Positions 1 through 46,000 of a stretch of DNA of 64,000 nucleotides are shown one piece after another (within the stretch, counting starts at the first letter, position 1; the number at the start of each line of letters is the position of its first letter). The notes below the pieces were generated by a model. That model ran no database searches. It was given only the letters and a program-made list of their open reading frames with translations, and was not told where the DNA came from. Made by a program: the position numbers and the translations under genes. The stretch is from contig CM028334.1 in the NCBI GenBank assembly GCA_016647705.1, forward strand, positions 5,580,046-5,644,045. Reading direction: 5' to 3'. Source of the stretch: Eucommia ulmoides (Eukaryota > Streptophyta > Magnoliopsida > Garryales > Eucommiaceae).

Positions 1-444
1 CAATACTTACTATGAATATTTTTTAATAACTTTAAATTATTTTTAAAAATCAAAAGAAAAACGATTTAGATTCCTGAAAATCACAATTTGATTCTTTCCA
101 TTTTTTAGTAAACAAAGTGATCACAACAAAATAGTGCCTTCATGTGGACTTATCGCCAATGTTAAATCAAGAGGAATTTGCACCCATCAAATCTTTGTCA
201 TTTCAAATCTTGTCAATGTTAAACCGATGGGAATTAGTTCAGGTGGTTAGGAGAATTATCATATTTTCTTTTAAATTTTAATTAAAAATTTGATCTTCCT
301 AGAAAGTATTCTAAAAATAAAATTAATTCTAAATCCATTAGGTCAATATGGATAGTGCACCTTTGAGATCGCTTCAAGATATAATTAATCAAGATACACG
401 TAAATTGATCCGAAAAACATGTAATATAAGGCTTTATTTATATA
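1..444. repeat. Segmental duplication, copy A, left part
   Basis: This stretch is almost identical to 43074-43517; I see one substitution by eye. It begins at the window edge, so the duplication may extend further left. No coding region is visible. It ends exactly where the Helitron at 445 interrupts it, and the homology resumes at 6395. Confidence 0.93.
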
Positions 445-455
445 CTAGCTAATAC

Positions 456-475
456 CCCGTGCCTGAAGGCACGGG
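456..475 (-). other. Helitron 3' terminal hairpin
   Basis: An 8-bp perfect stem (CCCGTGCC/GGCACGGG) with a 4-base TGAA loop sits 11 bp from the CTAG end of the Helitron. This is the usual position of the subterminal hairpin thought to signal termination of rolling-circle transfer. Confidence 0.8.
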
Positions 476-494
476 TGTTCAATTTTTTATTTAA

Positions 495-538
<44 letters not shown>

Positions 539-1394
539 CAACCCATTGCTACAAAACTACCGCTATGCACGGGGTCTGGGGCATAAAAATAATGTTATTA
601 ATTTAATATAAAAAAAATAATACAAAAATAATGTTATTTATTAAATACACGTGATTTTTTCATTGTTAAGTTAATAGCTAATTTAATATAAAAAATATAT
701 ATATATAATTGATTAAGCAAAATAAACAATATAACCGGAAGGAAAAAAAAAAAACCAACAAAAATGTCTACAACCAATACAGAAAATACTAAGTTAAAAA
801 TACAGATTTATATATAGATATCTATATACACACAACCCAATTTCATTTTTAACAACCCAACCCAAAAACATATCTACAAAAAAAAAAATTCGCAATCCTC
901 CATCTATCAAATCACTTACTATTACTAACACCTATATGAATTTTCTCTAATTCAACTATCAATCAATCGCATCACTGCACTTTATTTTTCATAATGGTTT
1001 TCAAAAAATTTGAAAACAGATTTCCAAAACTGAACCAAACGGGACATACAATAGTAACAATACTAAATAAACTTACTTTGGAGGATCCAAAAGAGTAGCC
1101 CTCAAGGCTTCATCGCTTAAATTGCCTTAGAATTTAATCAAATGTATTCAACAGTATAACAACCAAGTGGGGACAGAAGTTCTTTTCTTATTTGAGATAA
1201 CCACTTCACATAGAACATTGAATAAGGCAGTTAAAGCTATTCAAGCTAATCACCAGAGTCAAGGTAGTTGGCTAGTAGCTTTCAAATTGCAAATAACACC
1301 ATTGGCAAAAGTTGCTCATACCTTCCAAGTTGATTTTGAATCTCCCACCTTAGCTGATCGAAGCATTTCATATAATAACCCTGGAAATGCAAAC

Positions 1395-1595
1395 AAAAAG
1401 TCGCACATGGAAACGGAAACGAAAACAGGGAACAGGGAACAGGAACAAAAAACAGAAACAGAAACAGAAACAGGGAGCAGGAACAGAAACAGAAACAGGG
1501 AACAGAAACAGGAATGGAAACAGAGACGTAAATAGAAACAGAAACAGGGAACAGGAACAAAAATAGAAATAGGGAACAGAACAGAAACAAATGCA
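1395..1595. repeat. GAAACA/GGAACA purine-rich simple repeat
   Basis: Many imperfect copies of six-base units such as GAAACA, GGAACA and GAAACG lie in a row. Open frames across it are low-complexity (ET/NR repeats on plus, FLFLF on minus) and are not credible proteins. Confidence 0.75.
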
Positions 1596-1938
1596 AATTT
1601 AACCTGATTCGAGAGCCAGTTCGAGAGCTGAGATTTAACCTGATTCTACAGTCGCTTCCCTCCCTCCTCGCTAGCTTGTCTCTCTTCCCTCTGAATCTAC
1701 AATCGAACAAAACAAATGCAAATTAAAAGAGTAAAAATATAACAACAGTATAGAAACAATTAACCAAATGAAATAAGCAACCCATTTGGCAATAGGATAA
1801 GCAAAATCCAAACCGCGGTTAGAATCGCGCCCCATCCGAAACTGGTTGCCTACTTCCGACTGGGATCAATTGAAACTTCAATCTTTGGAGGAATAAAAAC
1901 GACGTCATCCCACTTCAAAATTTAACTCTCCTGTATAA

Positions 1939-2417
1939 GGTGGCGTTCAGTTAGCGTTTCTGTTTTCATATTTCTGTGTATGTTCCAAAAAACAAAAATT
2001 GGGAACAGAAACGGTAATATAGGAACAAAGAATCTGATTATGTTATGCTCAAAGTTTTTTAGAACAAATATCTAGGAATGAAACATAATTTTTCCAAGTT
2101 TTCTCAAAACAGAAACAAAAATATAAAAAGAAACAAATTATTCCCCCATTTCTTTTTCGATTCTAATTCTCTTGAAAATAAAAGCAAAAACATTAAGGCC
2201 TATTTATTTGGTGTTTCAGCTCCCAGATTTATGTTGCCAAAAAATGGGGAACAGAAACAAAAATATGGTAACAAAAGGATATGTTCCCCTCTGTTCGCTA
2301 ATTTCATAAGAAATTTTTGGGAACGCACCATTTTTCCCCATATATCTATCCATGTTCGAAGTTTTCTGGGAACAAAAACAAAAAATACGGGAACAGGAAC
2401 ACTAAGAAAAGGCCACC
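1939..2417. mobile_element. Tourist-like MITE (about 479 bp) inside the Helitron
   Basis: The left end GGTGGCGTTCAGTTAGCG and the right end, whose reverse complement starts GGTGGCCTTTTCTTAGTG, form imperfect terminal inverted repeats. TAA flanks it on both sides (1936-1938 and 2418-2420), matching the 3-bp target preference of PIF/Harbinger MITEs. Related elements lie at 9764-10228 and 33077-33529. It has no coding capacity. Confidence 0.55.
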
Positions 2418-3183
2418 TAAAACATTGAAAGGTTGCAAAAAAATTGATACCATAATTGTAATTAAAACAACAATAATTAAGAAACCAAATGGTGAAATAG
2501 AGAAATGAACCTCGAGTTCAAATCGCAAAAAAGATTAATTCAACAGATAGGAATTAAAGAAGAAATCATTCGTAAATTAAACTGTAAACTGTAAACAAAT
2601 TAAAATATGAGTTCCCTTCAAGCTCCACCTATCATAACAGAATAGAACATAACAGAAACACTAACCATAATTAGTTGCACAAAACATTCAATTCGCAGAT
2701 TGAAGTTCAGTTTCTCATTTTCACATTTTAGCCTTCTTTAATTTAGTTTCCAACGACTTAGAACACTGTTGAAGATGGGGGATGCTGTCGAATGTTGAAG
2801 ATGGAGAGAGAAGTCAGGGGCGGCGAGGAACCTCACTAAAGAGAAACGCAAAAGAAGAACACAATGAAAACAGAAACACTAATCTGGGGGCAAAAGAGAA
2901 GAATGGGGGTCGAAACATACCTGAAAAATTAGCTATCACCGATTCCAATTCGATGGTATATCCTCAAAAAGTTCAGTAAAATTAAGCATGAATTTAATCA
3001 AATTCAGTCACAATTAAACAAAACTGAAATGAAAAACCATCAAATTGAAGAAAACCCTAGATCGTCCAATTACCTGTCGCCAACTGAAGAAATCGTCCAA
3101 TTAGCTATCACCGATTCCATCTCCGTGATTAGCAAACCTAAAAACCAAGCCGCTCCATCACTGAAAACAATAACAAAAACAGT

Positions 3184-3935
3184 AAACAGAAATGGGAACA
3201 GAAACAGAAACAGTAAATGGGAACAGAAACAGAAACAGTAAACAAAAAAACAAAAAAACAGAAATGGGAACAGAAACAGTAAACAAAAAACAAAAACAGA
3301 AACCAAATGCTACCTTGGTTTTTTTTTCGGATCAATCTTTTATGATTCATAAACAGAAACCAAATGCGACGTTACTTTTTTAGTTTGATATTTTAGGACT
3401 GAAACAGAAATGGGAACAGAAACAGTAAAGAAACAGAAACAGAAATGGGAACAGAAACAGTAAACAAAAAAACAAAAAAACAGAAATGGGAACAGAAACA
3501 GTAAACAAAAAACAGAAACAAAAACAGAAACCAAATGCTACCTTGGTTTTTTTTTTCGGATCAATCTTTTACGATTTATAAACAGAAACAGAAACCAAAT
3601 GCGACGTTACTTTTTTAGTTTGATATTTTAGGACTGAAACAGAAATGGGAACAGAAACAGAAATAGGAACAGAAACAGTAAACAAAAAAACAGAAATGGG
3701 AACAGAAACAGTAAACAAAAAACAAAAACAAAAACAGAAACCAAATGCTACCTTGATTTTTTTTTTTTCGGATCAATCTTTTACGATTCATAAACAGAAA
3801 CAGAAACAAAAACAAAAACCAAATGCGACGTTACTTTTTTAGTTTGATATTTTAGGACTGAAACAGAAATGGGAACAGAAACAGTAAAGAAACAGAAACA
3901 GAAATGGGTACAGAAATAGTAAACAAAAACAGTTT
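3184..3935. repeat. Tandem repeat array, unit about 225-235 bp
   Basis: At least three units repeat here. Each combines GAAACAGAAATGGGAACAG runs, the phrase ACCAAATGCTACCTTG, a T-run followed by CGGATCAATC, and ends near TTTAGGACTG. The GGACTG marks fall at 3396, 3631 and 3855, giving spacings of 235 and 224 bp. It lies inside the Helitron. Frames across it are low-complexity and not coding. Confidence 0.85.
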
Positions 3936-4510
3936 AGGGTATTTTAGGGTTTCTGTCATTTATGGTTATATGCTAGTGTATCAAAAATCATTGCAATTAT
4001 ATTAGATTTAATTATTAATGGACTGTTTCTGGTTAACTACTTCTGGACAACTGTTCCCAACCATTCCTTCCCAACCAAAAATATAATTAAATCTAAAACA
4101 TATAGATTGAAACATATACACTGAATAAAAAAAAATAAACAAACACTATCAAATTAGTGAGAAGATTGAAATTAGGGTTGAACTTACCGAAATTAGAATT
4201 GAGGTTCAACATACCTGAAATTTCGGAGAAATAGAGCGTGAGAATTTGCTAAAACCGAAGCTACCTGTTCGAGCATTAACAAAAACACATTAGGGGAGAT
4301 AATTGATCTTGTTAAATAAACATTAAACGAATGCCATCGAAGCTCATTAAGAAACAGTAAACTAACGCCATTTAAGCTCACTAAATAAACAGTAAATGAA
4401 CGCCATCGAAGCAGAAGCAGATAAACTAAACGAACAGATAGTCAAGAAAACGTGAATTTTGTTCATCGGAAAAAGCAGAAGAAAATGAAAGGATAAGGAA
4501 TATATACTTA

Positions 4511-4862
4511 TTGTGTGTTTGTAGTGAAAAGGGCGATGGCAGTGGTGGCGGTGTGGAGAGGCGTTTGCGGTGGTAGCTGCACGACGCTGGTCGAAGAAAT
4601 AAAAATAACAATTTTAAAACCCAAAAAATAAAACTAAATGACAAATATTCATTCCAAGATGGAATGATTTCAATTAATGCACGGAATTGTGTGTTTGTAG
4701 TGAAAAGGGCGATGGCAGTGGTGGCGGTGTGGAGAGGCGTTTGCGGTGGTAGCTGCACGACGCTGGTCGAAGAAATAAAAATAACAATTTTAAAACCCAA
4801 AAAATAAAACTAAATGACAAATATTCATTCCAAGATGGAATGATTTCAATTAATGCACGGAA
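4511..4862. repeat. Direct tandem duplication, 176-bp unit x2
   Basis: A 176-bp unit beginning TTGTGTGTTTGTAGTG occurs at 4511 and again at 4687, essentially identical. The partial start of a further unit follows at 4863. The near-identity implies a recent local duplication within the Helitron. Confidence 0.88.
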
Positions 4863-5144
4863 TGATTTCATCACAATTTCAAGAAATTGTAAAGAGAATT
4901 GAGATAGACTTACTGCCGAAGCTCTTATTCCTTGGTGGCAGCTTCTGTCGGATCTCCACTGAAAGTAACAACATGCATGGGCAGTAGTAAATTGCTTGGA
5001 TCTTAACATTCCAAACCGAAACAATAAATTAATCACATAAAAAACGAAATAAACAAATTACAAACCCAAAAGCTGAAAAATTAGGAAACGATTTGTGAAG
5101 GTTTGAGCAAAAAAAACTAAAAAATTTAAAAAATAAAAAATAAA

Positions 5145-5412
5145 AGAAGCAATCCGTCATCTGATATTACAATTTCTCAGTGGAATTTCACTCTTAGAAA
5201 TGAAGAAGAAGAAGCAAAAATATGTGGCATGAAAAAAGAAGCTATCTGAGGGTTTCCAGTGGGTGGTTTCCAAAAATGAAAAGCTATCTTAGAAATGAAA
5301 GAAGCAATCCGTCATCTGATATTACAATTTCTCAGTGGAAAATTCAATGTTATCATACACATGGAAGAAACTCAAGAATGTTATCATACACATGGAAGAA
5401 ACTCAAGAAATA
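5145..5412. repeat. Short local duplications
   Basis: A block around AAGCAATCCGTCATCTG occurs at about 5148 and again at about 5302. A roughly 33-bp unit containing CATACACATGGAAG is repeated back to back near 5347-5412. No gene is evident. Confidence 0.7.
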
Positions 5413-5454
5413 GGGATTTGATTTCACTTGAACTACATGTAGATCTACAATTAG

Positions 5455-6185
5455 ATCGATGATGGTGGATGGCTGCTATGTGGGATAGTGTAGGGGGACG
5501 GCCAGATCTGGGCAATTCAAACCCAAATATGGAAAATCGAATGCGGATCTGGCCAAATCGTGGCTGTGATGGTGGAAGAGAGCGTGGGTGTTGGTGGTGG
5601 TGGAAGTGGTTTGGGTTCGTGGTCTTGGGTGAGAAGGCCTTCAAGGGTTGTTGGTTCAGCTTCTGATAGAGCGAGAGAGAGATAGACAGATGCGATTGAG
5701 AGAGAGGGTCGTGCATCGATTGAGAGAGCGAGGGAGCAAAGAGTACCTGGCGATGAACGGCGACGGTGGTTGCTTCAGGTCCGACATCCTGAGCGTCGGA
5801 GTCGACGCAATCGTCGAAAAGTCTCCAACCTAGATGGCGAGATACGGATGGCGCAGTAATTGCTGTGATGGCAGCGGCAGCGGCAGCGGCGGCGTCTTGC
5901 AAAATGAAAGGGAGAGAGCGAGAGACACAGGAGAAGCGAAGTGGGGAGGGGGGAGGGATGAGAGAGACGTACCTGCACGACAGCGAGAACGACGGCGATG
6001 GATTGGGTGGAGTCGAGAGCGACGGAGACGGAGACGGGGACGGCGATGGCGATGGCGGTGGCGATGGCAGTGGCGGTGGCGACGTCGGAGGTGGTAGAGA
6101 GAGAGAGAGAGAGGAAGAGGGCTGGGGAAGAGAGTGAGTCTCGGAGGAGGAAGAGGGCTGGGGAAGAGAGTGCGTCTTGCGGTCT
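5455..6185. repeat. GC-rich block shared with the second Helitron, with GGCGAT minisatellite
   Basis: The start of the block (5455-5560) is clearly related to 17570-17680. The phrase GATTGAGAGAGAGGGTC at 5694 recurs at 18212. Between 6030 and 6095 there is a run of GGCGAT/GGCGGT hexamers. Frames through it give G/D/R-rich or A-rich repeats in several frames at once, which argues against a real protein. It may derive from a captured plant gene or UTR that I cannot identify. Confidence 0.6.
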
Positions 6186-6857
6186 TGGAGTTCATGAAGT
6201 AAATGCAGACACTGTTGATCACTGTTGATGATAGTAAGTATTAAAAAGTATGGTTGATGGTAAGTGTTGAATGTTGTATATTATAGATATATATTGTATA
6301 TAAATGTTGTATATATCAAAAGACATCCAACGGTTACGATTATCCAGAGACATCGGACGGCTGTGAATGTAAATGAGCTGATTTATTATATAGATATATA
6401 TAACACAAGTAACCCATTATAAACATGATGTGACTACTGATGTGACCTAGAAAACTTTAGTGGTATCCATAAAATAGTTTGTTTGTTTTTTCACTAATTT
6501 TAAAATTATTTTGGCATTTGGTAAAGTTTTACCACGTTTTTTTCAAAATTAAAAAAATTAATTGGGCAAATAAATATTTTTACTAAAAAATAAAAACAAA
6601 AAATTGAAAATTATCTTAATATTATCCTTATAAATGATTTTTCAATATAGGAAATTAAAATTATATATTAATCCAATGGGAAGAGTCTCCTTACGACAAA
6701 GTTTACAAACTAGCAATTTAGCCTGCAAGGCCCAATAGGCCACTTTACAAACAGACACCAAAAACTCAGAAGGAGCATTACAAGCGGTCCAAAATAATAC
6801 AAAAAGCGCATTAAAAATAGACCAGGATAGCTCCAACACCGAATCTTTTCAAATAAT

Positions 6858-7139
6858 GTGTTTTGGGAGGCTCTCCACTTCACATGTTGTTGCTTCCGAT
6901 CTGTTGGATTGTCTCCAAAAATTATGAAGTTCTTAATCAGAAGATTTGAATTATTAGGATCTTTTAATCACTTGCCCTCTATGGTCCCCCTAGCTGGTTC
7001 CTGTATTTTTAAAACACCCCAAAATCCATCTCATAATACTACCGAATTTGATATTAGTAGTTCCAAATCTTGTACTCCAAAACATTGCAAAATTAATCAA
7101 TTGTTTCTGTATCCTCTGTTTCGTTCGACTTTTTGTTAA
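6858..7139 (+). CDS. Small conserved frame, 93 aa, copy A (hypothetical)
   Basis: A 93-codon frame beginning MFWEALHFTCCCF. I do not recognise the protein: there is no domain, signal peptide or membrane segment, though it is rich in Ser, Pro, Phe and Cys. The same frame is intact in copy B (43981-44262) with one substitution (Thr in A, Ala in B). That could reflect constraint or simply low divergence here. No promoter or intron signal is evident. It could be an exon fragment or chance, and I regard it as doubtful. Confidence 0.2.
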   Translation: MFWEALHFTCCCFRSVGLSPKIMKFLIRRFELLGSFNHLPSMVPLAGSCIFKTPQNPSHNTTEFDISSSKSCTPKHCKINQLFLYPLFRSTFC

Positions 7140-9099
7140 TGCTGATGAAAATAACACAGGTGTTCAAAGTACAATTCGATCTAATTATAGTAGTGCAAAA
7201 TATAATTAACCCCTTTTTTTAAATTTCTTAAAAAAATAAAAAAATAAAAATTGCGCTTGTTTAGGATATCCTCTTGGATGGTGCCTATTTATTGTGGCCG
7301 TTTGGGTACTCCACCAAGTCTATTAAAAAAATTAAAATGGGCATGACATGCACGCAATAATATATATTTTCTTATGAAGGTAAGACATTCAATATTAATT
7401 CACAGCATGGGTTTGATTATAGAAGTGGTAACAACGATAATGAAAAAAAAAAAAAAAAAAGAAGGCCAAAAATTTTGATTTACAATCACAAAATTAATTT
7501 TAATTTGTTATCAAAATAAAAATTATTTTTAGAATTTAGTCAAACAAATTATGTCCCTTACAAAATTATATTAAGATTTAGGATTTTATTTTTTTTTTAA
7601 ATATTTTCTAATTGCAAACCAAACAATAATTTTAATGTTGTAAGGCTTAGTTCGGCCCCTTTGTTTTTTTTGGGTAATTCGACTTCTGAAAAGGTGAAGT
7701 CTAGATAACTGTGTTTGGTAATCAATTCTTTTAGAAAAATTACAGTTGAGTTTGTGTTTTAAAAGTCAAAAGATTTTTTTTAACTGACGAAATTTTGTAT
7801 GACAAAATTACTCTAATTTTTATTTTAAATGATATTTTTTTTATTTAATGATATTTTATTTTTTATTTGCAAGATGTAAGATATTTAAATTTTTATTTTA
7901 TTTTCAACAAAATCTAGCATGTTAGGCGTTACGACGATATACGAGAGGAATAGAGAAAGACTCGTGATTGGCACCTCCTCCTTAGCTCAACAATTGTGCT
8001 CTAGCTAAAGGAGCGTTCGTTTTGAGCCAGGATAAAACTCTGGGAGATAGTCCACTGTAGTTCAGCGAGCAAGAGGACTCGTCTCAGAGAATCCTCGATC
8101 AGTTAGAAGGGTAGATTATAGCTATGAAGGGCTCAGCTAGATGACTTTGATCAGGAACTGGATGCAAAAACGAGCAAACTAGGTTGTGAGGGAGGGAAGA
8201 AACTGATTTCATGGAACTACTATCAAGATTCTTCAGACCATCTTTCCTATTTTAAATTATGAAATTTTATAGAGAAAAAATTTCAAATGCTCATGCATAT
8301 ATATATATATTAACAGTTAATTTTTGACAAATTTACTAAACAAGTGAGAGCTTCTTTTTAAATGTTCCTTTTACCATCTCATTTTGTTGTTTCCTTAGTG
8401 CTTTGCCCTTTTTACGTCCATTTAATAAAACAAACTAGAATAATAAAAATAAAGAAGGAAAGTTTATGAGTAATTAAAGGTGGTTTTGTTGGTAATAGGG
8501 TTTATTTGCCTTTTTAACCCCCTATATTATATCTCCATCTCACTTTGCTCCTTAAATTACAGATAATTTGTCATTAATTAGTCACCTAAACATATACATG
8601 CATGCTTTCCTATATAATTCAAGCAACCAGACTAAATAATTATATGCGTTATAAATAAAGACATTTTTTTAAATGTATTTTTTATTAACGACTTGGATTA
8701 ATTTGAGGGGAATAAATGGTTTGGATGAGTTGATAAAATATTTTAAAAAAAAAAAATCTCACCTAAAAATTTCGCACCCTCACTTACAAAGCAAAGTTTG
8801 AGTTTAATTACATTTTATATCTTTTAAATTTTGTATACATATTTTTTTACTTATTTTTTTTTTATTATTATTTTTTAACATTTATAAATTTAAAAATCGA
8901 TATAGCATCTTATTTTATTAATAAATCATGATTTTTTTTTAATGTCTTTTCATTAATGACTTGGATTAATTTGAAGAGAATGAATGATTGTGATGAGTCA
9001 ATAAAATATTTAAAAAGAAAAGTTTCCGTATAAAAATTTCACAACGCCACTTACAAAACGGTTGACTCTAATTACATTTTATACCTTTTAAATTTTTTT

Positions 9100-9532: not shown

Positions 9533-9763
9533 TATTCATCTCTCTATTGTGTATATATTCATGGCAATTAATTAATCCAAATGATATTCTTCTCCAGCAA
9601 ATTAATTAAAGCCGGCCTGTTGTCACGCGACATCACGTGATCCTTTCTAACTAACCCTTCTCTTTGGACAACCTTATATCATGAGATCTACCCAAATTAT
9701 AATATTGCTTAAATTACACAAATGTACCCAAAGTTTTTAGCTTAATCCAAACTAATCCCCTAA

Positions 9764-10228
9764 GGTCCCGTTTGGTTACTGTTTCCATTCCCTGATTTCT
9801 GTTCTCGCTCCCAAAATTTTGGGATTAATGTATAGAAACGTGTTCGGTAAGCACGTTTTTGTTCATAAAATTTTGGAACTAATTTTAAAGTAATTTATGA
9901 ATTCCTTAAAAATCTGAGAAATTAAAAAATGTTATTCTTATTCACTCTCACAAAACTATTCTCATTGCCACTCACGCGGCCACCACCACTCTCCATCTAG
10001 CACCACAACGCCGGTCACCATACATTTAAAGGAAAAAAAAAAAGAACAATTGTTATAACCAAACATGATTCTTGTTTCTGTTCTCATAAATTAATAAAAA
10101 CAATTTCAGGGCAATGATCGTTACCGAACATGTATTTATTCCCGAAATACTCCTAAACATAAACAATTCCTATCCCAATTTATTAGAAGTAGAAACAGAA
10201 AAACAGAAAGACTAACCAAACGAAGAAC
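9764..10228. mobile_element. Tourist-like MITE, 465 bp
   Basis: The left end is GGTCCCGTTTGGTTACTG, and the reverse complement of the right end is GTTCTTCGTTTGGTTAGTC, giving imperfect terminal inverted repeats. TAA flanks both ends (9761-9763 and 10229-10231). It has no open frame of note. It is the same family as 33077-33529 (opposite orientation) and resembles 1939-2417. Confidence 0.68.
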
Positions 10229-13088
10229 TAAAGTTCTAAATTAGTCTCTAATAAACTTTTAGTTATTGTATAAAAAACAAATGGATTTAAAAAAAAAAAA
10301 AAAAAGGAAACTGGGTATATGGAAAAACTGATTTAAATTACAAATCAAATAAGCCCCATAAAGTTTTAAGGACTAACTAGAGAAAATTATAACTTTGTGG
10401 CCAATTTGACATATTTCTTAAACTCAAGGACTAATGGCAGAACTTACCGTTATAAAATGAAATTAATGGTTTTTCAGATCGATCAACAAAGTCAATTGCC
10501 CATAAAAAGAAATCTGAGATATTATTTAATTATTCTGAAAATTAACAGATTTAACCCCCATATTAACGAATAAAAGGCAGTAATAGTTTAATATTTTTAT
10601 TATTAAAGTCTGCTAAACCAATAAAGTTTCCAAGATTTAATTACAGCCTCTTTGATCTGACAATGTTTGTGGGTGGGTAGAAGATTTAGATCTAGATCAA
10701 ATCACCCAAATTAAATCTGGTTTAATTTGGACAATACCTACCTATATATATATAATTTTAAAAGAATTTGAAAAGAAATTAAAAAATAAATGATTTATTA
10801 TATATATTTTTCAACGTTTAGTTTTTAATTTTTTTTTAACAAATAGAGCAATTTGTGTTTATTAATTTATTAGTATATGACCCGGGGTTAAAGTCACCAA
10901 TTTTAATTTAATACATTAAACTTAAATATTTTATATTTTATTCAAATTATTAATTATAAAAAGACATTTTGTTGAGAGTTTGCATTTTAGTTTCTCAACG
11001 AAATATAATTCAACGGATGAAAATATCTTCAACCGTCCAAGGTAAAAAATATTTCAAATGTAAGATATGTCCTTATATAATTTGTTGCGAGTTTTATGAT
11101 AAAAATCAATGATTGCTTATTTATTGAGAGTTTTATGATCTCAGCCCTTGAATCTAATCTAAAAGTTGAAAATTTCTCTTGATTTCTTTAAATCTTGAGC
11201 CTTAAATATTTAATCTAAGGGTATAGGCTTAGTTTGGTTCTCTTATGACTTTTTAAAAGGAGATGTTGAAAAAGAGTTGTGGGTTGTTTGGTAAATTTGT
11301 CAAAAAATGATTGCTGAAAATGAGAAGCACGTTGGTAAACATTTGTCTAAAAGACTATTAAATTACTAAAGTAGACATATTATATTTTCTTAATTATTCC
11401 TAATATAAACTAAGTATAAAAAACAAGGTACATATAAAAAGAAATATTTATTTATATTAGGGAAAAATATATTTTAAACTCTCTAGGTATTGACACATTT
11501 CTAAATGATCCATTTTCGTTTGAACGTTTCATTTTACTTTTTATTTATTTTTTTGCTAATCTCTTTCTCTCTCTCTCCCTCCCTATGAAAACACCTCGTA
11601 ACAGGGGGTGTTCACCCTTGTTCAACCGATAGGAAGGGAGGGAGTTGAGCGGGAGAGAGAGAGAGAGAGGGAGGGAGGAAGAGAGAGAGTTGAGCGGGAG
11701 AGAGAGTGTGAGAGAAGTCAAAGAAGAAAAAAATAATAAAAAAATGATTAAAAAATGTAAAATGACAATTTTGCCCTCAAATTCAATTAGTTTGGATGTC
11801 ATTTAGAAATATGTCAATAACTAGAGGGTTTAAAATGTACTTTTCCCTTTATACTAACCTATGATTGATATAAAAAAAAATTACAAATAAATTTTATAAT
11901 TGAAAATAACTTATATGTTGGAAATACAAAAAATTATTATCTAACATCTTGCAAATAAAAAATCAAAATATTATTAAATTAAAAAATTAAATATCATTTT
12001 GTATTAAGAAAATCTATATTTAAAACTTAAAATTGGAAGCTTAAACTTGAGAATAAATGAGAGCCCATAAAATCATTTTTCTTAATTCTCCTTAATTTCT
12101 CTACTTATTATTTTGTCATTTTTAATCATTCTCTCTTTCCTAAAAAATAAAGGAAGTAGATGTATATATTTATGTGATTAGTATGCAATACATCTCTTAA
12201 TAATTTATTATGTGTTCCGTCTTAGTGTTATATGAGTATAATTTTGATTTGTCAATATTCTGCTGCAAACCAAGTAGTTTTGAATGTACGAGTATTGATA
12301 AAGTAAAGATTTTTTATTTTTTTATTTTTTTTCGTTTTGCATGGGAAAGATTAATTATCCTAACAATAGGGTTTACTGTGTTACTTAAAATAAGTTATAT
12401 TGTTTAAGGGATTATTTTGTATATTGTGAAAACTTAAGGGTAAATTGAATATTTGTTTATTTCAAAAGAGAGAATTTTTTTTTTACATAATTACATTTTT
12501 GTTTGTTGTTGTAGAAAAAACATATTTTTAAGGATTACTTAAATAAAACTCATGCCAAAAGTGCAAAAAACTTATCACTCCAAATTTGTCCTTATTTTAT
12601 AGGTATAATCTTAATGACAAGTTCTACTAAGATAGTGGTAGCGAGAAATGAAGATAGCAGTGGTGAAAAAAAAACCGAAGTTGGTGGTGGCGAAAAATGA
12701 AGATGGTGTCGGCAAAGGAAGAGGAAAAGGGGGTCGTGACGAGGATAAGGTAGTCAGGGCGACAAACATATGAGCAATGTTTTATTTAGTTGGTGCTACG
12801 TTTTTTTAAGAGGAGTTGGTGCTATTTTTTTATTTTGTTTTAATAATAATACCCATGAACAATTTTTTATTTAGTCAATTCTTAAAAAGTTGTTTGATTT
12901 TAAAAGTGGAGTTGTAGAGGAAAACATTTCTTATTTTTGGTTAGGAGTGTATAAAGGTATGTTAGTTATTTGTAGAGATCATGAAACATAGAAAAGAAAG
13001 AGAAAAGATATCTGAAAAATATGACCAACCAAATTCAATTACAAAAACTTAATTTCTTTAAAATGATAGAAAAAAATGAAACATTATT
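10229..13088. other. Gene-free AT-rich segment (A-only)
   Basis: I see no gene. The stretch is low-GC with poly-A and poly-T runs. Part of 11870-12070 resembles, in reverse complement, the AT-rich stretch near 7640-7920, suggesting another degraded inverted-repeat element that I cannot delimit. Frames across 11545-11802 and 12210-12407 are low-complexity. Confidence 0.6.
11561..11720. repeat. Pyrimidine/purine inverted tracts
   Basis: A CT-rich tract (11561-11586) is followed after about 50 bp by GAGAGA/GGGAGG tracts (11633-11720), in which GTTGAGCGGGAGAGAGAG is repeated. The arms could pair or form triplex DNA. Confidence 0.6.
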
Positions 13089-13478
13089 TTAGTTCAAATT
13101 AATTGCACATTTTTACTAAAATTTGATTTTTTTTTTTTTTACCTCCCACAAATAAGAAAATAAATTCGCAATGGTACATCTCTTTATGTTTAACTAAAAT
13201 TTCATCATTCATTCAAATATTAAACAATACCCTCAATTGAAACACATAAAACTAAAATGTTCAAATATTAATTGGAAATAAATATTGAAAAAATTATGAA
13301 ATATTTCCAACAGTCTCAATAATATATAGTTAACCCATAAAAATAACATACAAAAATTCACTAACTAATATAAAATATTTTGTCAAACAAAATAAATACA
13401 AAATTAAATTTACACAATCAACTAAAATACATATATAAATTATTCCAAAACCCGCGCTTAGCGCGTGTCTAAAACTAG
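13089..13478 (+). mobile_element. Helitron 3' end, plus strand
   Basis: The sequence ends in CTAG followed by T (13475-13479), preceded by a short GC-rich hairpin CGCGC-TTA-GCGCG. This matches a Helitron 3' terminus. A homologous end lies at 63414-63794. Because homology between the two loci continues beyond CTAG, they share flanking DNA and are probably duplicated loci rather than independent insertions. The 5' end could not be placed. Confidence 0.6.
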
Positions 13479-13997
13479 TAAAAATAAAAAAGAGGAGCTA
13501 AAATAAGGTAAAATATATTTTATTTATTGAATATTTTTTTAATTTTTACTATTATTTTAATTAATTTTAATTTTAATATTAAATACAACCTCAACATTTA
13601 GTTGATTAAAAAAAGGAAAAAATACCAAATAGTCTCCTTAGAAGGTTAAATCTACAAGATAGTCCCACTATTTTTTTTTGCACAAGATAGTCCTTCAAAA
13701 AATGCTGGTTTGTACAAGATGGTCCTAAATTTATTGAAATGACGATTTCACCTTTTCTGCACCTTCTTTTTCTCCCTTCCTTTTTCACTCCCAAGTCTTG
13801 CACCTGATTTTTCCCCTGCACCTTCTTTCGACGAAATCTCTAACTGCTGTGACGTCCGCCTCCACGAATCCTACGAAATCCCTACCGTAATTGCGACAAA
13901 ATCCCCGACGTAATCTCCGCCTTCACGAATCCGACGAATGGTGAAAAATCTAATCTAAAATTTCCAGATTTAAGTTTTCAGATTTGGATTTCGGCAA

Positions 13998-14219
13998 TCA
14001 AAGGAGAAACGATCGCCCCGAGAGTCCAACGATCTCTTGCTTTATGCCGTCGGGATCAATGGCGAAGAGCTTGACGATTCGGTCAGAGACCTTCTTGGAG
14101 GACGATGACGGTTCGGATGAAGTGGCGGAAGATCTCGTGATATTGGCGTTGTAATAGTGGGACAACGAAGGAGTGATGCGGATTCGGGAAGAGAGTCTCT
14201 GAAAATCAGCGATCGCCAT
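13998..14219 (-). pseudogene. Captured first exon of a mitochondrial ferredoxin-like protein (C1-FDX type)
   Basis: The minus-strand frame from the ATG at 14219 starts MAIADFQRLSSRIR, a Ser/Arg-rich presequence typical of mitochondrial targeting. It continues through VSDRIVKLFAIDPDG and ends near EIVGLSGRSFLL. From memory this matches the N-terminal part of the plant 2Fe-2S ferredoxin-like subunit linked to respiratory complex I (Arabidopsis At3g07480 family). The cysteine-bearing cluster-binding portion is absent and the frame closes at a TGA right after SFLL, so no functional ferredoxin can be made. It lies inside the MULE-like insertion, which explains the truncation. The in-frame upstream ATG at 14258 is probably 5' UTR. 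Family assignment is fairly firm; the exact orthologue is not established. Confidence 0.6.
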
Positions 14220-14689
14220 TTGTGTGGTGGTGATGATGGTTTGGTTTGTGGAAAGCAAGCCATGGTTGAGAAATCATCTTGGGTTTTTTGCTTCCGATAT
14301 ATTTGTGTGTGTGTATATAATGTCTATGATTCAACAAATGTGTTGCAATTGAAAGAAATAGTAGCAAATTGGTTTGGAAAACGGAATTTGGTTTGAAAAA
14401 GGTTGTTTTGGTTGCTTGATTTTGGCAATTGTTGTTGGTTGTGTGTTTTGGAATTGATAAATGTTCTTCCTAATGTTGAGAGTTTAATTTCTGATTTTAG
14501 AAAAATTAAAGGATGATTAGTTTTTTTTTATGTTATGTTGAGAGAATTATCAATTTGCATAAAGAAATTGAGTTTTTGGATTGATTTAGTTGATTTGAAT
14601 AGAATTTAAAGTTTATTTGGTTGAATTGATTTGGTTTGTATTAATTTGAATGAAAAAATTGGAATGTAATACTATATTGTGTTGAATAC

Positions 14690-15055
14690 GGCGATAAAAG
14701 TGGAATATAACACGATCTCGTGTTATATTTCAATATGAGATCGTGTTGAATATAACACGAGATTGTGTTGAATATCAATATGAACGTAAGATAGAGAAAT
14801 TATCAATTTGAATGAAAAAATTGGAATGTGACATGATCTCGTATTATATTCAACATTAGATCGTGTTAAATATAATACGATTTGAGATTGTGTTGAATGA
14901 TGAAAAAATTATAATGTAACACGACTTCGTGTTATATTCAACACGAGATCGTATTGAATATAACACGATTTGAGATTGAGTTGAATGTAACACGATTTGA
15001 AAATGTGTTGAATATAATACGACCCTCGTATTGAATATAACACGAGGGATAAAAT
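14690..15055. repeat. Array of palindromic TCGTGTT/AACACGA repeats
   Basis: Roughly ten copies of the phrase ATATAACACGA and its reverse complement alternate with GATCTCGTGTT and GATTTGAGATTGTGTTG. Neighbouring units form hairpins. It lies inside the MULE-like element and has no coding content. Confidence 0.8.
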
Positions 15056-15162
15056 CATCACAAAAAGACAAAAGAATTATTTTGTAACGTGTTTAAAAAA
15101 AAATGTATTTGGTAGTTTTGTCCTTATACGATGACTTCTTGGTAACTGTCCTTTAAAAAAAA

Positions 15163-15231
15163 TCAGTTAAAAAAAGCGAGAATAAAAAATTATAAATAAT
15201 TTATTTAATAATTTTTCAAAACTTATTTCTT
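15163..15231. repeat. Right-hand flank shared with 63931-64000
   Basis: From TCAGTTAAAAAA onward the sequence matches the window's last 70 bases. It continues the homology that was interrupted at 13615. Confidence 0.75.
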
Positions 15232-15620
15232 TTGTATCATCTTTGATTTTTAGAACAAATATATAGCATGAGTTATATAACTTTTACCAACATGAGTTGG
15301 AGAAGCTCCTTAAGAAACACTTCCAGGGATCGAACTATGGGAGGGTTGTGAATCGAAAGTACTCTGTTGGGAGAGGTGTCTTGCTTCTAGCGTCCGACAG
15401 TACCTCGAATGATTAGTCTCCGCCAACCGTGGTGTGGGGACACCCTGGAAAACCGAAAAAAAAAAAGAATTACATAATTTGTTTTTTATTTTTTTTCCGA
15501 AAGCAAAAAAGGAATGTGAAAAATAATAAATTTTTAGAAGAAAACACAACCTTCGCTTACCAAGGACCTGTCAAAATCTGTAATTTTCTAAATTTCAGTG
15601 AAGGTTCATTATAGAGAGAG

Positions 15621-15626
<6 letters not shown>
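15232..15626. other. Intergenic, no gene recognised
   Basis: A moderately GC-richer patch (15310-15450) stands out from the AT-rich surroundings, but no family, TIR or coding signature is recognised. The frames across it are short. Confidence 0.5.

Positions 15627-15676
<50 letters not shown>
15627..15676. repeat. (AT)n microsatellite
   Basis: About 25 uninterrupted AT units lie immediately left of the second Helitron insertion. Confidence 0.95.
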
Positions 15677-15684
<8 letters not shown>

Positions 15685-15685
<1 letters not shown>

Positions 15686-18600
15686 TAACGTATAACCTGT
15701 GCCTGAAAGCACGAATGCAAAAAAAAAAAAAAATCTAATTACATTTAAGTCGAGTAACTAATCTCACTCAAGATATTACTAAAATTCTAATAATTTAGAG
15801 CACACTTAACAATTATAATAATTCAAAAAATCTTTTAAAATTGAGCTTCAATATATATTTCCAAAAAAAAAAAATGGGAGCATAACAATTTTTTTTCCCT
15901 TCGTGGTCACGCTGCTTTCCATGAGATGATTCCTCAATTGAAATGCCCCACGAAATCTCAGTTCCAACCTTCAATTTTGACCCCAAACATTTGAGATATG
16001 GACAAAAAAAATAATTAATTAGTTCATAAAACTACTTAATAAACCTTTTCATTAGATATAAAATCCTCAAGCATTTTTATGAGGTCTATTTTAGCTTCAA
16101 AAAATAGGGAAAAAATAAACCAAGTTTGATAAAAAAATAAAATAAAAATAAAGATTTGAATAATTGAATAAATAAACATATTAAACACAAAAAACAAAAA
16201 ACAAAGAACATAATGACTCACACCATTTTGCTGCCAGCCATAACAAATTTTGTTACTAATCGGATCAATATCACTTAACAACCCAAATATTAAATTAAAA
16301 AAATAAATAAAGAGAAGCAGAAGGACACTGACAACAAATGTTCATGTTTTTCTTATACCTACTTAGAGCTTCTGATAGATTCTCTTTTCCACTTTAGCAA
16401 CACGTTAAAAGATCAAAAAATACAAAACAAATCTCACCGAAAACAATAACAAAAACATTAATGAAAATGCATTCTACATAACTAAATTAATGATTGTAAA
16501 GATAGACAAAACAGACAAGAAACGACATTCACAGTTTAATTAACCGTTTATTTTAAGAAAAAAAAGAAATTAGAAACAAAAACAAAAAATTAAAGCAGAA
16601 ATTAAAAAATAAAACAAAACATAAATTATAAATCATTTTTTGAATCTAAGAAGAGGGTTAGGCCGCCATGGCTGCAACATCAGCTACCAATCGTGTTGCC
16701 CGCCATATAAGACAATTCAATATACCGAACCATTAACAAACTAACCCATAGAACACTAAGAAAAACACAAAAACAAGAACATGAAAAGCCTAAAACATAT
16801 AAAAAACATAGGGGAAAAAAAAACTACTATAACTGAAACTAAAGAAATAAAATAAAACTGAAACAAAAAAAAAATGGACTGAAACACACACTTTAAAAAA
16901 AAAAAGGAACGAAATAGAACAAAATAGAAAAAGAAAAAGAAACACTCATGACCTTAGAGATTAATAAGATCAGAAAAAAAAAAAATTCAAATGAAAAATG
17001 TTAGATATGCAAGAGAAATTGGTGGAGTTTAAAGAAGCAAAAAAAGGAATAATAGATACAGAGAGAGAGATCTTACCAGAAATGGATCAATCCAGACAGT
17101 CGATGGATGAGACGCCGAGAATCATCCATACCTTGCCCATGGTTAACATTGTAAGTAGAAACAATTTTGGGATTAATATCAGCGAAAATCATTATAAATC
17201 ATTGATCAAGAAATTAAAAACTAAAAATGAAAAGGAAGATACACATTGGATATTAATCTAGTAGAAAAAATCCGAGACCAATACTTGTTTTGTGTTGGAT
17301 TTGAGAAGAATTTCTTGGAAAAAAAAAAAAAGGGGTGAAGCAAATAATGAGATCCAAAACACAACCATAAATAGCTAGAAAAAGACACTGAAATTCCATT
17401 TCTTAAATTAAAATGGATTTGGGAATCAATCAAGTGATCAACTGAAATCCATTACTTATTTTGTTGTTATTGCTCCTCAGCCATTCTTTCAAATAAAGGG
17501 TTTGAACATATCATGATTCAAAACTGTAAAACAAAGATAATATAATTCAATGTCACTTGGATTACAATTAGATCAGTTATGGTGGATTGAGGCTATGTGG
17601 GATGGGGTAGGGAAGACCAGATATGGGCAATTCGAAGCCAAATATGGAAAATAGAACGTATGTTTGGCCAATTAGATCAATTGTTGTAATTTGTTCTCTC
17701 CCTCTCTCTCTCTTTTTTTGATAAACAACTATGATATTATACTATTGAAAGAGATACTTAAAACAGAATAAAATCGACAGAGACTGCTTTCAAGTTTCAC
17801 CATATCAAAATAGTACCCGACGATAAAAAATCAATATGGAACTAACTTCACATATACAATCAAATCAGATCAGATCGAAGAAGAAAAACACCAAAGAACA
17901 ACGTATTTAGCAACATTTCTCTGCTCTCACAAACATTAATATCGGAAAATATCATTTACGGGCAAACGAACACATGCATCTGAACAAAAACAGATCTAAT
18001 ATAAGAATGCCAGTTTACCTTGGTTAGAAGATGTTTTCAAGCTATATACATCTCACAATTAAAAATATCAATGAGAGGAGAAAGAAAATGGATACCTGTA
18101 TGAGCTTCTTCGGTTCAATCTCTCCCAATTCTTCTCTCTCGATCTATGTCTTCACTTCTTTGGTGGGAAACCGAAGAAGGTGAGATAGATAGAGAAAATG
18201 GGGGAGAGATGAGATTGAGAGAGAGGGTCGGCAGCAATGGTTGTAGTGGTGGTAGGGTAGCGTGCGTGCCATGCATCGATTGAGAGAGTAAGAGACAAAA
18301 AGAGAGAAAAACATATTTGGGCGTGGTGATGGTGATGGCGATGGAACGGCGACGACACGGTGATGGCCATGGAAGGGAAATTACAGAGGGTTTGGGCAGA
18401 TGGAAGCAATGGAGACAGAGTCGACACCAATTTGAGGAGCGGGAGAACACCGTTCAGATTGGAAGTTCCTGTTCAACAATCAAAAACACAAATCAATTTC
18501 AAGGAGAATATCGTCTAGGGTTTTGAGGGAGAGAGATACACTTGTTTAGAGAGAGACGTATGTGTTATGTTAATTAGGGAGAGAATTAGGGTCACAACTA

Positions 18601-18981
18601 TGGAGAGAATTAGTGTGAGCGAGAAAATTAGAAGAATTAGACATCCATAGGAATTGATTTATTATATTATAATCAATCAATTTAAAGGTAACAAATTTCT
18701 TTAATTAATTTCGGTGTTTGAATTAACATTATAAGAGAGAACTAAGACAGATAAAATTAAAAAATTAACAAATTATAAATCAAAACAGCCATATATAACC
18801 TTATTTCTATTTAAATAAATTTAATTTTCTTTTATAGTTCCTTAACTTATGTCATAAATATATCCTAATCAGCATTTTGTTTGTCTTAATTAACAGATTT
18901 ATTTGTTTTAGTCATATTTTTGTTTGTCTTAATCATAAATTTGTCATAATCAACAAAACTCGTCATATTTTATATAATAGA
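15685..18981 (-). mobile_element. Second non-autonomous Helitron, about 3.3 kb, minus strand
   Basis: On the minus strand it starts TCTATTATATAAAATATG beside a host A (18981/18982). It ends TTAG beside a T (15684/15685), a one-base variant of the usual CTRR. A degraded hairpin around CCTGTGCCTGAAAGCACG near 15696-15713 is clearly related to that of the Helitron at 445. It shares an internal block with that element (17570-17680 with 5455-5560; 18212-18300 with 5694-5760). No Rep/helicase frame is visible. The whole surrounding 9.4-kb segment is missing in copy B, so there is no clean empty site to confirm the ends. Confidence 0.62.
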
Positions 18982-20150
18982 TATATATATAGAGAGAGAG
19001 AGAGGAAACCATGAAAGTTACAGAACATCAAGCTTACATGTGTGGAAGTGATAAATGTTTTTCACATTGGCTCTCACTTCCTACCCCTACCTTTCTTTTT
19101 ATTTTTTTTAAAAGAATAAATTTAACCTTTTTACCCCCTAAAAGTTTATGTTTAGATTCGTTTTGTATTCAAACTTTTAATTGCAATGGTAGATCAAGAA
19201 AATTGGTTGAAAATGAGTTAATTTTTTTAAATCATTATTAAATATTTTTTAATTTATGAGAATTCAGAAAATTGATTGAGGGTGATCCAAAAAATTATTA
19301 AATATTTTTTAATTCATTAGAATTTATGCAAAATTTTAACATATTTTAATTTATTTTTTCTAAAAATATAGGAATAACAGTGTAAATTTTAAAAAACTGA
19401 GGATGGATTTGAATCCCACTAGACTCTTAATAGATCTGCCACTAACTGCAACATACCGCACATTAAAATTCATAAATTGTAACCAAATGGTTCAAATCGT
19501 CATTCTCAACTAGGGGTGTTCATGGCCGAACTAGGCCGAGTTCGGACCAGACCCAACCTAATAAATTATAAGAATTTGTAGGACTCAAGCCCGAGCCCGG
19601 TCCGGGCATCGGCCCCTATTCTCGTGCCCAAACTCATTCATTGTAAAATACATAAAACCCAAGCACGACCATTATATAATATTTTTAAATAATTAATAAA
19701 TATATTTTTAAATAAATTATATAATTAAATTTAATCTATATAACTATTATGAGTGAGAGTAAAAATAGAATTGGTTAGTTGCTAGTCCAACCCTAACAAT
19801 AATCAGGTCTAACTTTGGGAGCACTTACCTTATTCATGAGCTTAAACTTCAAATACAACCCCTAAAATGGCCAATATGCTGGGCGGACTCCCAGGCTCAT
19901 GAAGACCCCTATTCTCAAGTATAAATTTTATCCCAAAAAATAACATTTTCAGCTAGAATTTGACATATTCTTTTTAGGAACATAGTGAATCAGAACATTT
20001 CTTCTCTGCTCAAACATCATGGCCTAGCCGTTCTTGGATCCGGAGATTCTGGGTCTTTCAAATATCTATACAGTATATATATCATCTCCTTAAAATCACC
20101 ATAGCCCACAAGACATGATTTTGTTTTTCTTCCATTGTCTCTCCTCCCTA

Positions 20151-20179
20151 GGCTCTCTCTCTCTCTCTCTCTCTCTCTC
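20151..20179. repeat. (CT)n microsatellite in the pseudogene 5' leader
   Basis: A CT run about 25 bp before the start codon. The intact copy B keeps only a short CT run (48104-48118), so this tract has expanded in A or contracted in B. Confidence 0.85.
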
Positions 20180-20201
20180 GAATTTGTAGCATATAGCTGT
20201 A

Positions 20202-23200: not shown

Positions 23201-24194
23201 TACTTTAGTATTACTATTCTTATTTTATAAATTTCACTAATTGCACTCGTATTTTATACACACTACAAAAATAAACGCTAACTAACATAATTAGAAATTA
23301 ATAAATATTTTATACACACTACAAAAATAAACGCTAACTAACATAATTAGAAATTAATAAAAATAAAAAACCAATTTTCTTCCATTTGGGTTTCATTCAA
23401 AAACTAAATTAAATGCAATATTGGGGAGCTTTGCGTGTGAAAAGCCTTGAAATTTCTTCACCCATATGCCAAAGCATTGTCTTGACATTTTTGGCACTAT
23501 CCCCTACAAAAATATGTGCCTACCTAAAGCTAGTTATGGCTTTTGACATGCCCTCTGGCCCTTTTCTTATGTCATGTCCTTCAATATATGTACAGTTCCT
23601 TTCATTCTGTACACTACTTATATGGTTCATTCGAAAAAAAAAATAGTGACATTCAACTAATGTTTTAAGATAATTGATTTGCTTTTATTTGCTGAATATA
23701 CTTGTATGCTGAAAATTACAGAAAAGAGCAACGCCTACAGTTTCGGAGTAGTTTTGTTGGAAATCATAATAGGGAAGAAACCAGTGGACCCGTTGTTCCC
23801 AGACGAGCAACATGTTATCTAATGGGTTCGCACTCATCTGAAGAGCAGAAAAGATCCGGTAGACGTAATCGACCTAAAACTCCAGGATCACCCAGACACC
23901 CACATACAAGAGATGCTCCAGGCGCTCGGGATATCCTTGCTCTGCACCAGTTATCGAGCAGAGGATCGACCAACGATGAAAGATGTGGTGGCGTTATTAA
24001 GGGAGATTCAACACGATACAACCACAGTCGGAGGGGAGATCCACAAGCCTGCAACAAAGGCTTTGGCAAAGCCCGACGGCCCGTCTCATTCGTCCTCGTC
24101 TGTGACCCCGGCCCAATTGATGATGATGCAGGGGTCATTGAACTGCTCCCTCGCATACTCTTTGTCCGGTAATTATCCCTCTGGGAATCAATAG
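20202..24194 (+). pseudogene. Decayed LRR receptor kinase, paralogue of 48143-52230
   Basis: Aligned to the intact copy, this gene has the same start region and two-exon layout but many lesions. Codon 34 is TGA instead of Trp (20301-20303). Two bases are lost after 21017. A 144-bp in-frame deletion near 21237 removes two LRRs. Twelve bases are lost near 21632, and one base is lost around 21725. Arg codons have become TGA at 22509-22511 and 22752-22754. The catalytic HRD is HCD and the DFG is EFG. The intron donor at 22864-22865 remains, but the acceptor AG is TG at 23693-23694. A Gln codon is TAA at 23820-23822. The ATP-binding VAVK-type lysine region is still readable. No full-length product is possible; any transcript would be truncated after residue 33. 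The largest surviving frames (20313-21188, 21085-21738, 21876-22511) are fragments of this one gene. Confidence 0.95.
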
Positions 24195-24348: not shown

Positions 24349-24354
24349 AATAAA
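24349..24354 (+). terminator. Relic polyadenylation signal AATAAA
   Basis: AATAAA lies about 155 bp after the relic stop codon, at the position equivalent to 52397 in the intact copy. Confidence 0.35.
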
Positions 24355-43073: not shown

Positions 43074-46000
43074 CAATACTTACTATGAATATTTTTTAAT
43101 AACTTTAAATTATTTTTAAAAATCAAAAGAAAAACGATTTAGATTCCTGAAAATCACAATTTGATTCTTTCCATTTTTTAGTAAACAAAGTGATCACAAC
43201 AAAATAGTGCCTTCATGTGGACTTATCGCCAATGTTAAATCAAGAGGAATTTGCACCCATCAAATCTTTGTCATTTCAAATCTTGTCAATGTTAAACCGA
43301 TGGGAATTAGTTCAGGTGGTTAGGAGAATTATCATATTTTCTTTTAAATTTTAATTAAAAGTTTGATCTTCCTAGAAAGTATTCTAAAAATAAAATTAAT
43401 TCTAAATCCATTAGGTCAATATGGATAGTGCACCTTTGAGATCGCTTCAAGATATAATTAATCAAGATACACGTAAATTGATCCGAAAAACATGTAATAT
43501 AAGGCTTTATTTATATATATATATAACACAAGTAACCCATTATAAACATGATGTGACTACTGATGTGACCTAGAAAACTTTAGTGGTATCCATAAAATAG
43601 TTTGTTTTTTTTTTCACTAATTTTAAAATTATTTTGGCATTTGGTAAAGTTTTACCACGTTTTTTTCAAAATTAAAAAAATTAATTGGGCAAATAAATAT
43701 TTTTACTAAAAAATAAAAACAAAAAATTGAAAATTATCTTAATATTATCTTTATAAATGATTTTTCAATATAGGAAATTAAAATTATATATTAATCAAAT
43801 GGGAAGAGTCTCCTTACGACAAAGTTTACAAACTAGCAATTTAGCTTGCAAGGCCCAATAGGCCACTTTACAAACAGACACCAAAAACTCAGAAGGAGCT
43901 TTACAAGCGGTCCAAAATAATACAAAAAGCGCATTAAAAATAGACCAGGATAGCTCCAACACCGAATCTTTTCAAATAATGTGTTTTGGGAGGCTCTCCA
44001 CTTCACATGTTGTTGCTTCCGATCTGTTGGATTGTCTCCAAAAATTATGAAGTTCTTAATCAGAAGATTTGAATTATTAGGATCTTTTAATCACTTGCCC
44101 TCTATGGTCCCCCTAGCTGGTTCCTGTATTTTTAAAACACCCCAAAATCCATCTCATAATACTACCGAATTTGATATTAGTAGTTCCAAATCTTGTACTC
44201 CAAAACATTGCAAAATTAATCAATTGTTTCTGTATCCTCTGTTTCGTTCGGCTTTTTGTTAATGATGATAAAAATAACACAGGTGTTCAAAGTGCAATTC
44301 GATCTAATTATAGTAGTGCAAAATATAATTAACCCCTTTTTTTAAATTTCTTAAAAATATAAAATATAAAAATTGCCCTTGTTTAGGATATCCTCTTGGA
44401 TGGTGCCTATTTATTGTGGCCGTTTGGGTACTCCACCAAGTCTATTAAAAAAAATTAAAATGGGCATGACATGCATGCAATAATATATATTTTCTTATGA
44501 AGATAAGACATTCAATATTAATTCACAGCATGGGTTTGATTATAGAAGTGGTAACAACGATAATGAAAAAAAAAAAAAAAAAAGGCCAAATTTTTTTATT
44601 TACAATCACAAAATTAATTTTAATTTGTTATCAAAATAAAAATAATTTTTAGAATTTAGTCAAACAAATTATGTCCCTTACAAAATTATATTAAGATTTA
44701 GGATTTTTTTTAAAAATATTTTCTAATTGCAAACCAAACAATAATTTTAATGTTGTAAGGCTTAGTTTGACTCCTTTTTTTTTTTTTGGGTAATTTGACT
44801 TTTGAAAAGGTGAAGCCTAGATAACTGTGTTTGGTAATCAGCTCTTTTAGAAAAATTACAGTTGAGTTTGTATTTTAAAAGTCAAAATATTTTTTTTAAC
44901 TAATGAAATATTGTACGACAAAATTACCCTAATTTTTATTTTAAATGATATATATATATTTTTTATTTAATGATATATATATATATATTTTTATTTGCAA
45001 GATGTTAGATATTTAAATTTTTATTTTATTTTCAACAAAACCTAGCATGTTAGGTGTTATGATGATATACAAGAGAAATAGAGAGAAACTCGTGATTGGC
45101 GCCTCCTCTTTAGCTCAGGAATTGTGCTCTGGCTAAAGGAGCGTTTGTTCTGAGTCAAAATCAAACTCTAGGAGATGGTCCACCATAGTTTAGCGAGCAA
45201 GATGAATCGTCTCAAAGAATCCTCGATCAACTAGAAGGGCAGATTATAGCTATGAAGGGCCAAGTTAGATGACTTTGATCAAGAACTGGAAGCAGAAACG
45301 AGCAGACTAGGTTGTGAGGGAGGGAAGGAACTGATTTCATGGAACTACTATCAAGATTCTTCGGACCATCTTTCCTATTTTAAATTGTGAAATGTTATAG
45401 AGAAAAAATTTCAAATGGTCATGCATATATATATATATATATATATATCAGTTAATTTTTGACAGATTTACTATATCTCCATCTCACTTTGCTCCTTAAA
45501 TTACAGATAATTTGTCATTCCTTAGTTACCTAAACATATACATGCATGCTTTCCTATATAATTCAAGCAACCAGAAAAACAAATTATATGCGTTATAAAT
45601 AAAGACATTTTTTTAAATGTATTTTTTATTAACGACTTGGATTAATTTGTGGGGAATGAATAGTTTGGATGAGTTGATGAAATATTTAAAAAAAAAAAAA
45701 ATCTCACCTAAAAATTTCGCACCCTCCCTTACAACACAAAGTTTGAGTTTAATTTCATTTTATATCTTTTAAATTTTATATACATATTTTTTTAGTTATT
45801 TTTTATTTTTTAATATTTATAAATTTAAAAATCGATATAGCGTCTTATTTTATTAATAAATCATGATGATTTTTTTTTAAATGTCTTTTCATTAATGGCT
45901 TGGATTAATTTGAAGGGAGTGGGTGATTGGGATGAATTGATGAAATATTTAGAAAGAAAAATTTCTATATAAAAATTTCACAACGCGACTTACAAAGACA

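Follow-up and report, generated by a model that had tools for sequence, protein, structure and literature searches.

We analysed a stretch of 64,000 nucleotides of the Eucommia ulmoides genome (assembly GCA_016647705.1, contig CM028334.1, positions 5,580,046 to 5,644,045), referred to below as the window, which holds two copies (A and B) of a duplicated gene region. A TA tract in one of them, copy A, is occupied by an element of 5,950 bp, and the counterpart of this site in copy B is empty. A preliminary description of the window had taken the element for a Helitron that arrived after the duplication. We are close to certain that the sequence at 445-6394 is a non-autonomous Helitron of this plant that inserted recently, with rolling-circle movement as its most likely mode of transposition. 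The case is a clean one: the filled and the empty site lie within one window, and near-identical siblings and a possible helper occur in the same genome. The features discussed here are listed in Table 1, in window positions.

Table 1. Features of the element, its flanks and its relative in the window.
Feature	Positions	Strand	Basis and remarks
Element read as a non-autonomous Helitron, 5,950 bp	445..6394	minus; 5' end at 6394, 3' end at 445	empty site in copy B; three full-length siblings sharing its ends
5' terminus TC, preceded by host A	6393..6394	minus	sequence; siblings
3' hairpin, 8-bp stem and 4-nt loop, CCCGTGCC-TTCA-GGCACGGG	456..475	minus	ends 11 bp before the 3' terminus
3' terminus CTAG, followed by host T	445..448	minus	
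GAAACA-type hexamer array	1410..1589		
Satellite region, unit ~235 bp, 3.3 copies, GAAACA-like hexamers	3172..3932		partly common to the RepHel-encoding relative
Perfect tandem duplication, period 176 bp	4510..4863		
Left host flank	1..444		one base different from 43074-43517; TA tract at its end
Right host flank	6395..7471		jointly with 1-444, 15 of 1,516 sites differ from copy B
Empty-site counterpart in copy B	43074..44600		insertion point in TA tract ~43510-43526; end at 44600 approximate
Decayed Helitron relative	15685..18667	minus	3' hairpin end 15685-15713; 115-bp block, 80% alike, 17560-17671; 5'-end-like motif 18655-18667, TC not conserved

The element and its empty site

Positions 1-444, continued directly by 6395 onward, align to 43074 onward without a gap at the junction, and the joined sequence is identical to copy B for 156 bp on the left side of this point and for 90 bp on the right side. 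No extra bases are present and, as the empty site is reproduced exactly, no target duplication is required. At this single site, TA duplications of 2, 4 or 6 bp could lie hidden only if the TA tract of copy B had changed its length. The preliminary description had regarded the insertion as proven to the base, and both the gap-free junction and the position between A and T hold. However, the alignment alone is ambiguous by one base, as there is an A at both 444 and 6394, and a placement at 444-6393 (between T and A) yields the same filled and empty sequences as one at 445-6394 (between A and T). The latter was chosen because it follows the Helitron convention and because three siblings at unrelated sites start with TCTATATAATAAATC and end with CTAG. 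Pairs of occupied and vacant Helitron sites are known from maize (PMC2267711).

The element combines the structural hallmarks of Helitrons, namely a 5' TC, a 3' CTRR in the form of CTAG, insertion between A and T, a 3' hairpin and no terminal inverted repeat. With 20 nt and its end 11 bp from the terminus, the hairpin lies within the range given for Helitrons (16-20 bp, positioned 10-15 bp from the 3' terminus; PMC2267711). A strict scan for 3' ends (8-bp stem, loop of 2-5, spacer of 5-12, CTRR followed by T) found a single such end in the window, which falls exactly on the boundary of the element, and none in 60 Markov simulations of the window; a looser scan with a 7-bp stem returned four additional, weaker sites (19513, 19558, 47457 and 47502). 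Compared as inverted repeats, the two termini match at 6 of 40 positions. Among the 25 longest of 112 inverted pairs, one touches an end of the element, a TA-rich pair of 21 nt (506-526 with 6382-6402).

Tandem repeats with a period of at least 6 cover 1,617 of the 5,950 bp of the element versus 3,438 of 58,050 bp in the rest of the window, and none of 51,656 other 5,950-bp stretches of the window reached the coverage of the element. These satellites travel with the element, because all three siblings that were fetched whole align with it from end to end at 99.1-99.9% identity. The unusual satellite load that had been claimed is therefore real against the rest of the window, but it has a precedent in the non-autonomous Helitron Mothra of rice with its two blocs of tandem repeats (PMC4683698). 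Internal repeat blocs, like the pairing of an occupied with a vacant site, are already known for the Helitron class; the element itself is well documented, and the preference for TA tracts, described below, is the part worth following.

Scanned against Pfam, ten of the element's larger frames gave nothing significant, one frame having three sub-threshold matches (E 0.15-0.65), and an Rfam scan of the window gave no match at the gathering threshold. It is conceivable, if rather doubtful, that the interior derives from a host gene, or part of one, captured with promoter, exons and introns, which is carried along and possibly expressed; this would be compatible with a Helitron. The first 1 kb is C-rich with ~50% GC, versus ~23-40% elsewhere in the element, possible splice-like junctions can be picked by eye, and a 115-bp piece is found again at 80% identity in the decayed relative of the same window. 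However, no significant Pfam match came from the ten frames, a result obtained with no genome search for a host source.

Siblings and enzyme-encoding relatives

The assembly of 946,670,599 bases in 391 contigs was searched with the last 63 bp of the element, without flank, and the best 40 of 78 candidates were scored. Among these, at least 20 places, the window included, carry the 63 bp at 97% identity or more over the full query, and the remaining 20 3' ends are 86-92% identical. All 19 close siblings terminate in CTAG. The three siblings fetched whole are full-length, share the terminal motifs of the window element, begin with TC and are embedded in unrelated flanks.

Elements encoding a RepHel protein are present in the same genome. 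The Pfam domain Helitron_like_N was found above the cut-off in the best 150 of 739 candidate places, and all four RepHel loci that were read with 10 kb on each side have a hairpin-CTAG end downstream of the gene. One relative (C11; L031 with L047 and L048) resembles the window element at both ends, matching its first 118 bp at 90%, its last 31 bp at 90% and part of its satellite at 80-84%, and has frames with matches to Helitron_like_N, PIF1 and Pif1_2B. C11 could be the supplier of the enzyme, although it is not a proven helper. The Helitron identity proposed in the preliminary description thus agrees with the structural tests, with the siblings sharing both ends and with this enzyme-encoding relative. 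Neither of the outcomes that the preliminary description had named as refuting it, additional bases at the junction or a lack of genomic copies with both ends, was observed. C11 also holds a frame matching a copia-type gag (L048:3871-4554, minus strand, E 4.4e-10), which is either captured or nested. The 30 best RepHel loci (L009-L038) fall into three groups whose members are ~96-99% alike to the first member of the group, and several of them have open frames of ~1,170-1,200 amino acids; judged from these sequences, Helitrons appear to have been active recently in this plant.

The element would most likely move as other Helitrons do, by a rolling-circle pathway through a single strand. A RepHel protein encoded at another locus and supplied in trans would nick the 5'-TC end, its helicase would peel the strand off until the hairpin near CTAG-3' gives the stop signal, and the freed strand would be joined between A and T within a TA tract. 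RepHel nicking, strand transfer and the role of the hairpin as terminator are taken from published Helitron work (PMC4778049).

Several observations weigh against this account. No recognisable protein is encoded by the ten frames scanned, so that movement would depend on an enzyme supplied from elsewhere, and the candidate supplier C11 begins with TA and not with TC. The 5' end of the window element was matched at only one of the four RepHel loci read with 10 kb flanks. Five further sibling 5' ends were found, three of which begin with TC and two with TA. When a 501-bp stretch at the expected distance was inspected at 16 sibling loci (the window and the three full copies excluded), the 5' end was present in these five; of the other 11 loci, three showed interior element sequence and eight none, and therefore many copies vary in length or are truncated.

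Three of the closest known systems are Helitrons. DHH_Mothra, a non-autonomous Helitron of rice, shares TC and CTAG ends, a 3' hairpin, the lack of a RepHel gene, internal tandem-repeat blocs and genome relatives that could supply RepHel, a likeness by description; it differs in its length of 1.25-2.74 kb and its 1,682 elements, compared to 5.95 kb and at least 20 places with a close 3' end here (PMC4683698). Helraiser/Helibat1 of bats has the same TC and CTAG ends, a hairpin 11 nt from the 3' end and insertion between A and T in AT-rich surroundings, but encodes its own RepHel and its movement has been demonstrated, whereas the Eucommia element would have moved with borrowed enzyme and its family often sits at alternating (TA)n (PMC4778049). 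Xuan1 and Feng8 of wheat are likewise non-autonomous, have enzyme-encoding relatives of the same family and use an AT target; their de novo movement was observed in wheat, while movement of the Eucommia element is deduced (PMC13286980).

Age and target of the insertion

The window element differs from its three full-length siblings by 5, 6 and 16 mismatches in ~5,900 sites (0.08-0.27%). The flanks of the duplicates differ at 15 of 1,516 sites up to position 7471 (0.99%), and two stretches upstream of the window at 51 of 4,057 and 66 of 4,246 sites (1.3-1.6%). Because of these 5-16 sibling mismatches against a flank divergence of 1.0-1.6%, the split of the flanks would be several times older than the insertion. 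This dating holds even if all five differences to the nearest sibling are assigned to the branch of the window element, and it assumes no clock rate, but presumes that siblings on separate contigs have not been homogenised by conversion. The earlier claim that the insertion is younger than the duplication is thus most likely correct, by virtue of sibling divergence, whereas the empty site alone, on which it had been based, is suggestive but insufficient.

Beyond 7471 (near 44,600 in copy B) the two duplicates abruptly become more divergent, going from 1% to 7%, with 141 of 2,019 sites differing; the split at this position exceeds all of 1,000 permutations, and the low divergence of the part before 7471 continues upstream of the window. 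The history of the duplicates is mosaic, and the jump suggests gene conversion, unequal crossing-over or a duplication of two ages. Such a history would also accommodate an insertion dating from the time of the duplication or before it, with a site that was polymorphic at that time or a copy B that regained the empty state by gene conversion, and a filled next to an empty site is in itself compatible with it. However, the siblings differ far less than the flanks and the upstream stretches, and we consider an older insertion improbable.

Target sites were counted from the flank-free query, and matches from a query with 27 bp of flank were left out of this count. With the window's own site left out and L076 removed because its flank duplicates that of L075 (19 to 18), the 3' flank starts with an alternating TA run of at least 6 bp in 13 of 18 independent siblings. 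Among AT sites of the window and 20 kb upstream of it, a single locus that served as background, 390 of 15,904 (2.5%) adjoin such a run. When matched for the A+T content of the next ten bases, 2.19 of the 18 would be expected (binomial ~6e-9). The RepHel-encoding elements behave similarly, as 12 of 15 adjoin a TA run of at least 6 bp; these 15 comprise the 11 elements with a hairpin end among 16 stretches fetched (five were without) and the four loci with 10 kb flanks. Three 3' flanks (those of L073, L078 and the RepHel element L056) consist of the 5' end of another copy, arranged head to tail. L056 is one of the 12 positive RepHel elements, and when L073 and L078 are left out, 11 of 16 siblings retain a TA run. 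Adjacent insertion of Helitrons has been reported in maize (PMC2267711).

A further count speaks against the bias. Of the 20 weaker 3' ends (86-92% identity) 14 have CTAG, and a TA run of at least 6 bp follows in four of these 14; the six non-CTAG ends were not counted, although three of them read CTAA, which fits CTRR, and one of these three runs on as TA. The preference may be limited to the younger part of the family, or decay may have erased old runs. We regard as evenly balanced the proposal that this Helitron clade, with enzyme-encoding and non-autonomous members, truly prefers (TA)n beyond AT-richness, that its own TA-rich 5' ends also serve as targets and so give rise to head-to-tail neighbours, and that easily melted or extruded TA would be the landing site for strand transfer by Rep. 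That (TA)n might be selected for its ease of melting or extrusion is our own inference. A preference for AT-rich DNA has been described for Helraiser (PMC4778049). In a literature search judged by title and start of abstract, no listed paper reported a Helitron targeting (TA)n, and our claim is limited to that; the reference list of PMC4486113 names a helitron-like element of Lepidoptera that occurs in (GAAA)n tracts.

We dismiss as extremely improbable a DNA transposon of the cut-and-paste type that inserts into TA microsatellites, as MuTAnT, TAFT and Micron do (PMC4486113), and whose TA-type duplication is hidden in the repeat: the site does lie in a TA tract, and a change in the length of the tract in copy B would formally allow duplications of 2, 4 or 6 bp, but the ends are of Helitron type, the inverted pairs examined offer nothing beyond the TA-rich 21 nt at one end, the long terminal inverted repeats that characterise Mutator-like elements of the MuTAnT type are missing, and siblings outside TA tracts (L068, L074, L077 and L080) retain CTAG followed by T. 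MuTAnT of Medicago, which targets (TA)n, is such a Mutator-like element and not a Helitron (PMC4486113). Should the TA-tract bias of the Helitron clade hold genome-wide, it would make target choice by Helitrons testable, in particular the question whether the Rep protein requires DNA that is melted or prone to form cruciforms, and would add Helitrons to those DNA transposons for which TA microsatellites are a fairly harmless place to insert.

Other features of the duplicated regions

Copy A contains ~9.4 kb at 9695-19071 without counterpart in copy B (~0.14 kb there), and the decayed Helitron relative listed in Table 1 lies within this stretch. Its 3' end matches that of C11 to the last base (29 bp, 90%). 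Over the whole window the matches of its ends are near chance; when placement was restricted to the 3 kb next to the 80% block, on the side where the end in question is expected, the null gave 64 of 3,000 for the 5' end and two of 3,000 for the 3' end, and both ends together occurred in none of 67 control intervals. Another sequence resembling the 5' end, at 10791-10804, was discarded as a chance match: it scores within the null, and no hairpin end was seen beside it.

A second stretch of copy A, 9,289 bp long and located 15.75 to 6.46 kb upstream of the window start (L040/L039), is missing in copy B. It has direct repeats of ~1.3 kb (93%) near both ends, and a simple-pattern search found no Helitron hairpin in it. 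A repeat of ~0.5 kb occurs at 9761-10222 and 33082-33532, the two being mutually inverted and 75% alike, with another match 19 kb upstream of the window. An open frame of 173 amino acids with a CCT motif (E 2.1e-13) is found at 42234-42752, a short distance upstream of the empty site in copy B. Both copies further contain a leucine-rich repeat (LRR) receptor-like kinase gene (48131-51064 and 20076-24546), with a frame that is open over 977 amino acids in copy B and with fragmented frames in copy A, in a comparison covering matches of more than 75% identity.

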